A stretch of DNA of 64,000 nt from a virus. The notes under the pieces are model-generated. The model was given only the letters and a program-made list of their open reading frames with translations, did no database searches and had not been told where the DNA came from. Shown here piece by piece: positions 8,359 to 40,090 of this stretch. The stretch is from IMG/VR virus record IMGVR_UViG_3300025887_000013, positions 1-64,000 of that record. The stretch is one strand, 5' to 3'. Each line of letters starts with the position of its first letter. Within the stretch, counting starts at the first letter, position 1. Position numbers and translations under genes: made by a program.

Positions 8359-9576
8359 ATGAAATTTGTAGATTTTATAACCGAATCCAAGAACACCCAT
8401 ATGACGCATATCGAAGATAAAGTCATCTATGGTGGTGTTAATGGTACACGTCAAGCAATATTTGCATTACGTGAATTGCGTGATATGCTTGCGGGTAAAG
8501 GTACTGCGGGACTGTCCACTAAGTGGGATGGTGCACCTGCTATCTTCTGCGGTCAAGATCCTACGGATGGTAAGTTCTTTGTGGCGAAGAAAGGTATCTT
8601 CAATAAGAACCCCAAGGTATACAAAACCGATGCAGATGTTGAAGCAGATACTTCTGGTGACCTCGCAGAGAAACTCAAAGATGCATTGAAGTATCTACCT
8701 GAACTTGGTATCAAAGGAGTCATCCAAGGGGACTTCCTATTTGGTCGAGGTGATCTGGGTAAGAAGAAAATTGATGGTGTGCAGTATACTACATTCCATC
8801 CCAATACTATCGTATATGCAATACCATTTGAACAGTCGAAGGAAGTACGCGATGCAAAAATCGGTATAGTGTGGCACACTACATATAAGGGTAAAACATT
8901 TGAATCGATGACAGCATCCTTCGGTGTAGATGTTTCTAAACTAAAAAAATCTAAAAACGTATGGTCACAAGATGCAATGTTGCGATCTGTAGATGCGACA
9001 ATGACCCAACAAGAAACGGAGCAAGTAAATGAATATCTTTCAAAAGCTGGTAAACTTTTTAACCAGATCAGTGGAACAACCCTCAGAACCCTTGAAGGAA
9101 ACCCCGTCCTCGCCGGAACAATCGAAACCTTCAACAACACCTACGTCCGAAAAGGTCAAACGCCCGGCGACTCGAAAAAGCACGCCCAAGCCCTCATCAA
9201 GTACATCCAAGACAAGTACCAAAAAGAAATCGACAAACGCAAAACCGAGAAAGGCAAGAGCGCCCAAGTCGAAAAGCGAGACGAAATCTTAAAGTTTTTC
9301 TCTCCGAAGAATCTAGAATCTCTAGAAAAGATGTTCGATTTGCAGAAAATGATTGTACTTGCGAAACTAAAACTTATAAATAAACTTAATAGTTTAAAGA
9401 AAATTGACACATTCGTTCAAACCAAAACGGGTTACAAAGTGACTGGTGAAGAAGGTTATGTAGCAATTGACAAACTTGGTGGTGACGCAGTGAAACTTGT
9501 TGATCGTATGGAATTTTCATACAACAACTTTTCACCCGATATATTAAAGGGCTGGGACAAACCTAGTCGTAATTAA
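8359..9576 (+). CDS. KxDG nucleotidyltransferase/ligase-like protein with capsid leader
   Basis: 405 aa conserved marine-phage protein (DUF6267-like, from memory). Residues near 50 read STKWDGAPAIF, where K-x-D-G is the nucleotidylation motif I of ATP-dependent DNA/RNA ligases and capping enzymes; VIQGDFLFG further on could supply motif III/IV-like acidic residues. The C-terminal third (YKVTGEEGYVAIDKLGGDAVKLVDR...FSYNNF) is also highly conserved-looking. The first ten residues, MKFVDFITE-S, fit a T4-like capsid-targeting leader with I-x-E cleavage. Codon choice changes abruptly between about 9060 and 9292, where a second ORF is nested in another frame. Confidence 0.7.
   Translation: MKFVDFITESKNTHMTHIEDKVIYGGVNGTRQAIFALRELRDMLAGKGTAGLSTKWDGAPAIFCGQDPTDGKFFVAKKGIFNKNPKVYKTDADVEADTSGDLAEKLKDALKYLPELGIKGVIQGDFLFGRGDLGKKKIDGVQYTTFHPNTIVYAIPFEQSKEVRDAKIGIVWHTTYKGKTFESMTASFGVDVSKLKKSKNVWSQDAMLRSVDATMTQQETEQVNEYLSKAGKLFNQISGTTLRTLEGNPVLAGTIETFNNTYVRKGQTPGDSKKHAQALIKYIQDKYQKEIDKRKTEKGKSAQVEKRDEILKFFSPKNLESLEKMFDLQKMIVLAKLKLINKLNSLKKIDTFVQTKTGYKVTGEEGYVAIDKLGGDAVKLVDRMEFSYNNFSPDILKGWDKPSRN
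9029..9292 (+). CDS. Candidate overprinted gene, basic Ser/Pro/Lys-rich protein, 87 aa
   Basis: An ORF in the +1 frame entirely inside the ligase-like gene, beginning MNIFQKLVNFLTRSV and continuing as a low-hydrophobicity tail of Ser, Thr, Pro, Lys and Arg (SSSTSKTSTKKKS; KPRKARAPKSK). A GGAG lies about eight bases before its ATG. Over exactly this stretch the host gene switches from T-ending codons to C-ending ones (acc, ctc, gcc, aac, tac), and the third base of the host gene is the second base of this ORF. That keeps the nested product polar and free of stops. Histone-tail-like composition suggests nucleic acid binding (inference). Confidence 0.6.
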   Translation: MNIFQKLVNFLTRSVEQPSEPLKETPSSPEQSKPSTTPTSEKVKRPATRKSTPKPSSSTSKTSTKKKSTNAKPRKARAPKSKSETKS

Positions 9577-38019: not shown

Positions 38020-38738
38020 TTAACTTAATTACTGTATGTACAGATCAATATCCTATGGAGTATGCCCGCAAGTTGATCACTCGATTCAAAGAGTTGAGTG
38101 GTTACAAAGTGGAGGCATGGTGCATCACCGACCGACCAGATGAGATTTCGGATATCGCAAATACCATCGAACCAGCTTTTGGTGCAGGTAAAGGTTGGTG
38201 GAATAAGATGAAAGCATACGATTCATTCTATGATGGATATGCTGTCTATCTTGATATCGACACTGTTTTAATCAAGAACTTTGATGATGAGATACGAGAG
38301 GCAATCCTTGCACTAGAGAGTGAAGTTGTTAAGGTCGCATGTGTATCCGATGCCATTGGTTGGAAAAATAACAAGTTTAGTTCTTCGATGATGGTTCTGA
38401 AGAGTGGTAAGATGCAAGAAGTGTATGACATCTTCTCACTAGAAAGTTTGAGATCGTTTGAATATGAATATGATGGGGGTGACCAAGTATGGACGGGTCG
38501 TCTACTCGAAGAGTGGAAACCAGGCGGTTACTCTGAGATCTACTATATGGACGAAGAGTTCAATCAAAACCTCAAACTCAATCTGAAATTCCATCTAGGA
38601 AGTAAGGTATTGGGTAATTGGATATTCCCTAAATATATCCCAAGTGGGTGCAAGATTGTAGATTGTGGTGGTAAACCAAAACCACACGAACTAGAATACT
38701 TACCGTATATAAAAGAGGCGTGGCACGATGTTCAGTAA
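38016..38738 (+). CDS. GT-A glycosyltransferase-like protein
   Basis: 240 aa from ATG 38016 (overlapping the upstream stop). INLITVCTDQYPMEYARKLITRF at the N-terminus, YAVYLDIDTVLIKN with D80-I-D82, SSMMVLKSGKMQEVY and a C-terminal HLGSK suggest a family 8-like fold. It overlaps the spanin gene by 11 bases, ending the glycan cluster. Confidence 0.68.
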   Translation: MINLITVCTDQYPMEYARKLITRFKELSGYKVEAWCITDRPDEISDIANTIEPAFGAGKGWWNKMKAYDSFYDGYAVYLDIDTVLIKNFDDEIREAILALESEVVKVACVSDAIGWKNNKFSSSMMVLKSGKMQEVYDIFSLESLRSFEYEYDGGDQVWTGRLLEEWKPGGYSEIYYMDEEFNQNLKLNLKFHLGSKVLGNWIFPKYIPSGCKIVDCGGKPKPHELEYLPYIKEAWHDVQ

Positions 38739-39123
38739 AATATTATTAGGAGTGGTACTTTGTATGGGTATCACGTTTGCAGGATTCTATCAGTTCATAC
38801 ACAAACCTTTGTTGGGTCAAGTTGTACAACAACAGGTACTTCTTGCGGCACAAGAGTTACGTGAACAAGAACAAGTAAAGACGATAGAAGCGTTACAGAA
38901 TAACCTACAGAAGACTTCCGAAGCATTGAATGCGATGTCCTCTCGTAATGCAGAGATTGAGGCAGAGTCTAAACGATACCTTGCAATCTTTGCACGACAT
39001 AACCTATCACGACTTGCAGCTGCAAAACCGACTCTGATAGAAACAAGAATCAACCGAGGAACTAAAGATGTATTCGACAGTATCGAAAACGACACTGCTG
39101 TTATTGATAACACTGATAAGTAG
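38728..39123 (+). CDS. Inner-membrane spanin (Rz-like)
   Basis: 131 aa with an N-terminal membrane anchor (about residues 5-24, ILLGVVLCMGITFAGFYQFI) and a long periplasmic coiled coil of Gln/Glu/Leu heptads (QQQVLLAAQELREQEQVKTIEALQNNLQK). Together with the overlapping lipoprotein gene this is the i-spanin/o-spanin arrangement that fuses inner and outer membranes at lysis of Gram-negative hosts. Confidence 0.78.
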   Translation: MFSKILLGVVLCMGITFAGFYQFIHKPLLGQVVQQQVLLAAQELREQEQVKTIEALQNNLQKTSEALNAMSSRNAEIEAESKRYLAIFARHNLSRLAAAKPTLIETRINRGTKDVFDSIENDTAVIDNTDK

Positions 39124-39484
39124 TGGTTGTACAACACTAGGTAACTGGGGTAAAGTACCAGAACCTATACCAGTAGAGATTAAGACGGTAGAGATAAAGG
39201 TTCCTATTATACATCCCCCAATGCCTAGACAGATTGACCTCAAAGATCCTCGGTGGTATGTGGTCAGTGACAAGAACATTGACACTTTTCTAGAAGATAT
39301 TACGAAACGACACGAAGGTCAGTTGGTCTTTATTGCAATGTCGGTAGGTGATTATGAGTTGATGTCGTATAACATGCAGGAACTAAAACGATATATAAAT
39401 CAACTAAAAGAAGTTGTGATATACTATCGCACTATGAATACAGATGAACCAGAGGTTGTAGAGAATGAGAAAACAGATAATTGA
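39068..39484 (+). CDS. Outer-membrane lipoprotein spanin (Rz1-like)
   Basis: 138 aa starting inside the 3' end of the i-spanin gene in another frame (56-base overlap). Lipoprotein signal TTLLLLITLISSG-C21, then a Pro-rich stretch (VPEPIPVEI...IIHPPMPR), typical of o-spanins, and a C-terminal coiled coil. Longer than most Rz1 proteins. Confidence 0.76.
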   Translation: MYSTVSKTTLLLLITLISSGCTTLGNWGKVPEPIPVEIKTVEIKVPIIHPPMPRQIDLKDPRWYVVSDKNIDTFLEDITKRHEGQLVFIAMSVGDYELMSYNMQELKRYINQLKEVVIYYRTMNTDEPEVVENEKTDN

Positions 39485-39662
39485 GTCGTTGACATCCCAT
39501 GCGGTGGGTAAGATTAACAAACATAAAATGAACGTGGAAGTTTACTTGGCCAATCCTACCGGTATTGGTGAACATCCTGATGTGATGGGAGCGATAGAAC
39601 ACGAGTTGAAGATCATTGCGGACTACCATGAACAGTTAGAGATTTTGGAGAGGTACTTTTAA
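39465..39662 (+). CDS. Conserved small phage protein, 65 aa
   Basis: MRKQIIESLTSHAVGKINKHKMNVEVYLANPTGIGEHPDVMGAIEHELKIIADYHEQLE: a helix, the NPxGIGEH.D turn and a second helix. This NPTGIGEH pattern is widespread in T4-like phages. Function unknown. Overlaps both neighbours. Confidence 0.7.
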   Translation: MRKQIIESLTSHAVGKINKHKMNVEVYLANPTGIGEHPDVMGAIEHELKIIADYHEQLEILERYF

Positions 39663-40090
39663 TGTATGAATATTCTTGCAAAATTGTTAGAGTTGTTGAT
39701 GGGGATACTGTGGATATTGATATCGATCTCGGTTTCGGTATTATTTATGCTAATCAGCGTATTCGTCTGTACGGTATTGATACTCCCGAATCTCGTACTC
39801 GTGATGCTGTCGAGAAGAAGTTTGGTAAACTCGCCGCCAGATTCCTTGCGGAATCACTGGGAGAAACATGTGTCCTCCGTACAAGACTCGACAGTAAAGG
39901 AAAGTACGGCCGAATCCTCGGAGAGTTCCTCGTCTATGACGCAAAAACCGACCGACAAATGACTGTTAATGAGATTATGATTCGAGACCATCTTGCGGTT
40001 GCGTACCACGGACAATCCAAGGATGATATCGAAGATGAACATTTGCGTAATCGTAAAATATTAATTGAACAATATGGATTCGAAGCATGA
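39662..40090 (+). CDS. Thermonuclease-type (SNase) nuclease
   Basis: 142 aa staphylococcal-nuclease fold: VVDGDTVDIDIDLGFG, then R35-LYG-I-D40-T41-P-E43 (metal/phosphate and general base, coincidentally in S. aureus numbering) and KGKYGRILGE with the second catalytic Arg at 84. No signal peptide, so it would act in the cytoplasm on DNA or RNA. It sits just after the spanins. Confidence 0.9.
   Translation: MYEYSCKIVRVVDGDTVDIDIDLGFGIIYANQRIRLYGIDTPESRTRDAVEKKFGKLAARFLAESLGETCVLRTRLDSKGKYGRILGEFLVYDAKTDRQMTVNEIMIRDHLAVAYHGQSKDDIEDEHLRNRKILIEQYGFEA

Follow-up and report, generated by a model that had tools for sequence, protein, structure and literature searches.

Lambda-type spanins offer a familiar example of a phage gene inside another one: the small Rz1 gene occupies the +1 frame of Rz, where it has a separate start, and its product is an outer-membrane protein that is lipidated at a Cys residue. 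To our knowledge, it is rare in tailed phages for a long sense overprint to be backed by more than the open frame itself. Viral genes that arose de novo by overprinting are a known kind (PMC8227390), and the nearest phage parallel to the case treated here appears to be the sgl genes of single-stranded RNA (ssRNA) phages, many of which lie in the +1 frame of rep; they are found where conservation is weaker, and their loss leaves remnants (PMC7693330). Here we describe an 87-codon open reading frame (ORF) at positions 9029-9292 of a 64,000-nucleotide stretch (the window), which covers positions 1 to 64,000 of the 84,826-base IMG/VR virus record IMGVR_UViG_3300025887_000013. The DUF6267 gene that contains this nested ORF in its +1 frame is termed host gene in the following; the ORF very probably is a real, translated, de novo overprinted gene that is selected for its product, whatever the job of that product may be. 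It is a previously unreported case of a known kind for which the comparative evidence is unusually clear; a literature search found nothing on DUF6267 or on its overlap with the nested ORF. The record contains T4-like baseplate genes, both ribonucleotide reductase subunits and an exonuclease, and its source is a marine T4-like tailed phage.

A codon shift that follows the nested frame

What singles out the overlap is the third base of the host codons. The host gene has a C:T ratio of 36:75 before the nested ORF and of 14:34 after it, whereas the ratio is 40:4 in a patch within the overlap. When the gene was recoded synonymously 200,000 times with the phage's own codon usage, the patch was expected to contain 12.6 +/- 3.0 C (maximum 27) and 24.7 +/- 3.5 T (minimum 10). 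The excess of C over T amounts to 37 in the patch and to at most 1 in 17 other genes of the window, and in a screen of 65 window genes the patch reached a z of 9.2, with at most 4.6 elsewhere. An earlier note on this DNA, made from the sequence alone, had described an 87-codon +1 ORF with a GGAG ahead of its ATG, which is confirmed with the GGAG 7 nt upstream, and a shift to C-ending codons over about 9060-9292 that reverts at the nested stop. The reversion stands, but the onset has to be refined: the first 10-14 nested codons favor T, and the C patch builds up gradually from about 9060 and is full only from about 9098. Another +1 ORF of 86 aa lies in the 5' part of the host gene (8429-8689) and is open in several relatives as well; it looks like a by-product of the host codons, since it has no comparable codon shift in the window.

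Six IMG/VR scans for the gene pair, together with phage records, yielded 455 loci with the host gene, 314 of which are distinct. A gene was scored as a patch carrier if C/(C+T) in the overlap was >0.3 above that of the rest of the same gene. This holds for 79 of the 314 genes, and in 78 of these 79 the nested frame is open for at least 75 codons, which answers the question of the earlier note whether relatives keep the ORF: 78/314 distinct genes do so, with the codon patch. Relatives with the same C patch but frequent nested stops, which that note had named as speaking against a gene, were not found, as none of the 314 genes combines a patch with a nested frame of <30 codons. Neither a patch nor an ORF of at least 75 codons occurs in 176 scored genes of the Melnitz, cyanophage, C48C1, HTVC008M and DLP_6 groups.

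The end of the patch moves with the nested stop. Nested stops differ in position, with ORFs of 55 codons (L028, L070), 80-87 or 96-99 codons. When 23 representatives are aligned on their respective nested stops, C/(C+T) amounts to 0.91 over the last five codons ahead of the stop, drops to 0.37 in the block that follows and to 0.26 in the one after that. Counted over the twelve host codons past the window's stop, carriers of a long ORF have 57 C and 8 T, carriers of a short ORF 22 C and 43 T, and the patch boundary shifts in several separate lineages. The bias is also reversed between the two parts of the nested ORF. In its head (host codons 224-229), the counts of C and T are 0 and 43 in carriers versus 21 and 48 in relatives without the ORF, and in its tail (host codons 246-278) the counts are 408 C and 48 T versus 269 and 431, with C/T fractions of 0.89-0.92 in carriers and 0.32-0.38 in non-carriers. 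Because each third base of a host codon is also the second base of a nested codon, Ile, Phe, Leu or Val are retained by T in the head, and Ser, Thr, Pro or Ala result from C in the tail. This opposite bias matches a helix and a disordered tail, which excludes codon preference or base composition as its cause.

The nested gene also appears to have its own translation start. Of the 79 patch carriers, 75 have a Shine-Dalgarno (SD) core and 76 an ATG at the aligned position, as compared with 3 and 6 of 27 relatives that lack the ORF; the L002/L006 group uses a second SD solution, CAGGAG, and in L032 the start lies upstream, at ATG-ATG. A stop abuts the nested start in 55/78 carriers including the window, where this TAA excludes readthrough or frameshifting from upstream, and in 23/78 carriers the nested frame is open for 8 or 13 codons upstream of the ATG. 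Among the 78 carriers, the +1 frame is open in 76, the +2 frame in one, and the antisense frames in 12, 0 and 6. Other frames were considered as the cause of the patch and rejected, the +2 and antisense frames being mostly closed, with first stops at varying distances from the patch end. One antisense frame has a stop at the site of the nested TAA in 36/78 carriers, which may follow from the local bases.

Synonymous sites of the host frame, whose conservation the earlier note had proposed to compute, are constrained in carriers only. Host synonymous divergence in the overlap over that in the 5' part is 0.56 (0.46-0.67) in carriers (35 disjoint pairs), 1.03 (0.89-1.24) in relatives without the ORF (22 pairs), and 0.83 (0.47-1.26) in a weak group with an ORF of at least 50 codons but no strong patch, whose ORFs may be either young or decaying (10 pairs); for C/T changes alone it is 0.44 in carriers versus 1.34 in non-carriers. 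Together, the comparisons show a selection that, as far as can be read from sequences, retains the start site and the hydrophobic residues of the head, purges stops and hydrophobic residues from the tail, and ceases at the nested stop. Selection on composition and architecture is clear, that on individual residues weaker.

Several points weigh against a selected gene. An open +1 frame of the nested length is in itself only mildly unlikely (P = 0.016 in synonymous recodings), and the true anomaly therefore is the codon shift, not the length of the ORF. The counts in relatives share phylogeny, and because of this shared ancestry p-values are not probabilities; strict independent pairs number only 4, about 2 of them concordant and 0 discordant. 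A four-class count gives a dSN/dSS of about 1 outside the overlap and in non-carriers and of 0.20 for the +1 frame in the overlap, but the latter value depends on just 13 double-synonymous sites. The dNN/dNS of the nested frame is 1.00 versus 1.23 in a control region, and purifying selection at the amino-acid level beyond composition is weak. Finally, the positive charge of the product is largely set by the host protein (15 observed, 17.9 +/- 2.0 expected), and as it is mostly imposed by the host frame it is not evidence of function or of nucleic-acid binding.

Origin of the nested gene

The nested ORF is lacking in the outgroups C48C1, Melnitz, HTVC008M and cyanophages, and the many stops in their nested frame mark it as a young frame. 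Its distribution is more restricted than that of its host gene: tblastn with the nested product found no match in 50,697 phage records, whereas DUF6267 is counted in 467, and no isolate that was searched has the nested ORF. Searches of Pfam and PHROGs with the nested product gave no family over the cut-off, and there are no free-standing homologues among the 455 loci, all of which, every nested-protein match included, are inside a DUF6267 gene. GTDB contributed 12 loci with the host gene from metagenome-assembled genomes, with no strong carrier among the 11 examined. Judged by this distribution, the nested ORF is of de novo origin. Host trees from which the overlap columns had been removed show frequent changes in ORF state or patch, with at least 9 patch changes on the host tree and 16 ORF changes on a quick rooted tree, so that gain, loss and recombination are mixed.

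Individual relatives illustrate such changes. The host genes L045:4001-5200 and L070:1332-2531 are 97-98% identical on either side of the overlap and 84.5% inside, which suggests local recombination or very fast change limited to the overlap. L045 has an early stop in an otherwise open nested frame that ends at the same place, and this looks like a recent loss. In L127, the nested ORF runs to 133 aa, into a sequence that is in the host frame in relatives (GGDAVKLVD); here an indel joins both frames, and this is either a real fusion or an assembly error.

The host gene and its surroundings

The host product matches PF19782 (DUF6267) with an E of 1.4e-104 and 350.9 bits, above the curated cut-off of 27 and over positions 1-373 of the 376 of the profile, and it matches phrog_455 with an E of 1.2e-101; in cyanophages, the DUF6267 gene is annotated as T4-LIKE GC 71. 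Its neighbors are an exonuclease and a cytidylyltransferase-like gene, and in relatives UvsX, primase-helicase, MazG and cytidylyltransferase-like genes. K55 W56 D57 G58, E365 G366, A377 and K379 are invariant in 30 diverse DUF6267 members, and the KWDG, EGxVAI and A-x-K motifs are invariant or almost so. The AlphaFold (AF2) model of the host protein, which is of moderate confidence (pLDDT 74, pTM 0.57), shows an all-helical region (residues 217-344) in addition to a beta-rich part that is nucleotidyltransferase-like. The overlap is distant from the invariant KWDG, EG and K379 in the host protein and is its most variable segment in carriers, non-carriers and outgroups alike, with a majority-residue frequency of 0.73 versus 0.83/0.86 in the flanks.

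The earlier note had called this gene ligase-like, which is a plausible but tentative name. The conserved motifs agree with it, but Pfam assigns the protein to DUF6267, and Foldseek with the host model reached DNA ligase I and RNA ligase only at E about 0.4-0.5 (best ligase 1x9n, E 0.43). A profile search of solved structures with the host protein gave no credible match. From its motifs, a ligase or covalent nucleotidyltransferase identity of the DUF6267 protein is plausible.

In the annotated record of Synechococcus phage S-PM2 (L137:2995-4774), the DUF6267 and cytidylyltransferase genes are apparently joined or frame-disrupted, and a 591-aa S-PM2 cytidyltransferase-like entry (BFVD A0A0M6VVW4) matches the whole DUF6267 model. 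The features of the window are listed in Table 1.

Table 1. Positions of the nested gene, its host gene and further features in the window.
Feature	Position	Strand	Remarks
Host (ancestral) gene, 405 codons	8359..9576	+	DUF6267 / phrog_455 / cyanophage 'T4-LIKE GC 71'
Nucleotidyltransferase-like motifs of the host protein	KWDG residues 55-58; EGYVAI 365-370; K379	+	Conserved columns
Host residues 223-311, location of the overprint	9025..9291	+	Inside the all-helical region 217-344 between invariant motifs (AF2)
Candidate Shine-Dalgarno core GGAG	9018..9021	+	7 nt before the nested ATG (sequence)
Nested-frame TAA adjoining the ATG	9026..9028	+	Sequence
Nested overprinted gene (very probable), 87 aa + TAA	9029..9292	+	+1 frame, wholly inside 8359-9576; ATG start; stop TAA at 9290-9292
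Nested head MNIFQKLVNFLTRS, predicted amphipathic helix	9029..9070	+	AF2 helix 3-15; host third bases stay T
Nested tail, Ser/Thr/Pro/Lys/Arg-rich, predicted disordered	9098..9289	+	Host third bases C or A (patch)
Rz-like spanin pair	38728-39123 and 39068-39484		phrog_739 and phrog_812
SNase-like endonuclease gene	39662-40090		PF00565; host of the second candidate
Second, weaker overprint candidate, 98-aa +1 ORF	39666-39962		In the SNase-like gene

Possible function of the nested product

The AF2 model of the nested product has a 13-residue helix at residues 3-15 and is coil in the remainder. The mean hydrophobic moment of the head is 0.67, and the hydrophobic fraction of the tail is 0.016 versus 0.335 +/- 0.049 expected from recoding, which bears out the amphipathic head and the Ser/Thr/Pro/Lys/Arg-rich tail that had already been read from the translation. 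We propose that ribosomes bind the GGAG within the host-gene mRNA and initiate at 9029, which would produce a small basic protein in which an N-terminal amphipathic helix precedes a Ser/Thr/Pro/Lys/Arg tail with about 60 disordered residues. The helix, which may comprise about 13-24 residues, would seek a membrane surface or a protein partner and could come to rest on the cytoplasmic membrane, at its inner face, or on a host protein surface, while the flexible basic tail would bind an anionic partner. Membrane attachment is a tentative assignment, albeit one with almost as much for it as against it. As many close relatives lack the gene, it must be accessory. The setting that seems most likely is host takeover or counter-defence, in which the protein may act as an accessory factor that is co-made with a gene of the phage nucleic-acid module.

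What else could such a protein do? It could be a soluble nucleic-acid-binding protein, with a tail like the C-terminal tails of histone H1 and a helix that serves protein-protein contact. The net charge of +7 to +22 (mean +16), the composition of the tail (80% Ser/Thr/Pro/Ala/Lys/Arg) and the position of the host gene beside exonuclease and cytidylyltransferase-like genes, and in relatives beside UvsX and primase-helicase, would agree with such a role. The charge, however, is largely dictated by the host frame, and the contribution made by selection is a hydrophobic face in the head, which is a better fit to a membrane or protein surface; binding of nucleic acids as the main task thus seems rather unlikely to us. 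A lysis or membrane-permeabilizing peptide is clearly less probable still. Overprinted genes of phages are often lysis genes, as exemplified by ssRNA phages, where many sgl genes lie in the +1 frame of rep (PMC7693330), and the head is similar to cationic amphipathic peptides, but the 87-aa product has neither a transmembrane segment in its sequence nor a signal sequence, and with no Cys it has no lipobox. The host gene furthermore lies in a replication/nucleotide neighborhood, and a recognizable Rz-like spanin pair is encoded elsewhere, at 38728-39484. It is this pair, together with the lack of a transmembrane segment, that makes lysis the less likely job.

The remaining alternatives concern the gene itself. 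Translation could start accidentally at an internal SD sequence, and the tail could have been made hydrophilic just to render a jobless by-product harmless. Selection indeed seems to be mainly compositional, acting against stops and hydrophobic residues, with a dNN/dNS of about 1. However, an SD and an ATG are easily lost, and they are missing in most relatives without the ORF; an early stop in the frame would be the simplest cure, whereas some lineages extend the ORF to 96-99 codons, and the head is selected to remain hydrophobic. A harmless by-product is therefore very improbable. We give slightly less credence even than this to a non-coding patch, caused by local codon optimization, mutation bias or a recombined segment of different base composition, over which the ORF is open by accident. 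It is true that the host protein varies most in the overlap, which is seemingly exchanged or fast-changing, as in the above-described L045/L070 pair, but C is raised and G is not, the patch ends at nested stops at several different positions, its bias is reversed in the nested head, and no relative with a nested frame of <30 codons has it. Ribosomal frameshifting that fuses the host N-terminus to an alternative tail could be imagined for the 23/78 carriers with a nested frame open before the ATG, but with an abutting stop in 55/78 carriers including the window, and with SD and ATG kept, it is the least credible of all. A translated gene that is selected for its product thus agrees best with the patch, its boundaries and the start site.

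A second overprint candidate in the same phage

The SNase-like endonuclease gene of the window contains a second, weaker overprint candidate. The first 45 or so residues of its product would be mostly hydrophobic and would lead into a Ser/Thr/Glu tail, and the C/T counts of the SNase host codons are 5/28 over the hydrophobic part, 20/13 over the tail and 6/17 after the nested TGA. The ORF is kept with the same stop in relatives with 74-100% host identity (L467-L483) and mostly lost below 65%, and the synonymous-divergence test gave a mixed result. The Rz-like spanin pair lies upstream of the SNase gene and the hydrophobic ORF within it, at a distance of about 180 bases; the two spanin genes overlap by 56 bases, and the second has a lipobox-like SSGC. 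The spanin pair and the SNase region possibly form a lysis neighborhood.

Implications

The varying relatives of the DUF6267 locus constitute a natural experiment, in which the codon bias of the host gene starts, reverses and stops with the nested head, tail and stop, and moves with that stop. Gene birth and loss by overprinting thereby become directly testable, and phase-specific third-base shifts provide a simple scan for further overprints. The nested product also points to a protein family that current annotation has wholly missed. As a speculation, to which we give somewhat less weight than to membrane attachment itself, the DUF6267 hotspot of this large marine T4-like clade might be a nursery where a basic effector attached to the membrane arises time and again, grows longer, is exchanged by recombination and disappears, while selection imprints opposite codon biases on its helix and its disordered tail. 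The same phage would overprint a second, hydrophobic protein in its SNase gene, and T-to-C reshaping may generally yield small membrane effectors in phages with T-ending codons. If this holds true, overprinting would be a general source of such effectors, as yet unannotated, in phages that favor these codons.

Comparison with known systems

Several known systems share single features with the nested gene. Two-polypeptide endolysins likewise involve internal ribosome entry in a phage gene (PMC4777826, PMC9430671), but their products are in-frame with a shared stop, whereas the nested ORF lies in a different frame. Like Rz1 in Rz, it is a small +1-frame gene within a phage gene and has its own putative start; unlike Rz1, its product is without signal sequence or Cys, and its host gene does not encode an inner-membrane spanin. 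With viral overprints in general it has in common a restricted distribution, a disordered composition and an expected accessory role (PMC8227390). The cases tabulated in that source are, as far as its tables go, mostly from viruses of eukaryotes, whereas here the stages (none, short, long and decayed) are found within one tailed-phage clade. The agreement is closest with the sgl genes of ssRNA phages (PMC7693330): both lie in the sense +1 frame, appear to have arisen de novo in less conserved parts of enzyme genes, vary between close relatives and leave remnants. The nested ORF differs from them in that it belongs to a double-stranded DNA phage of T4-like type, encodes no transmembrane segment and probably does not serve lysis, and in that it occupies one conserved position in one host gene, where it goes along with a strong phase-specific reshaping of the host codons.
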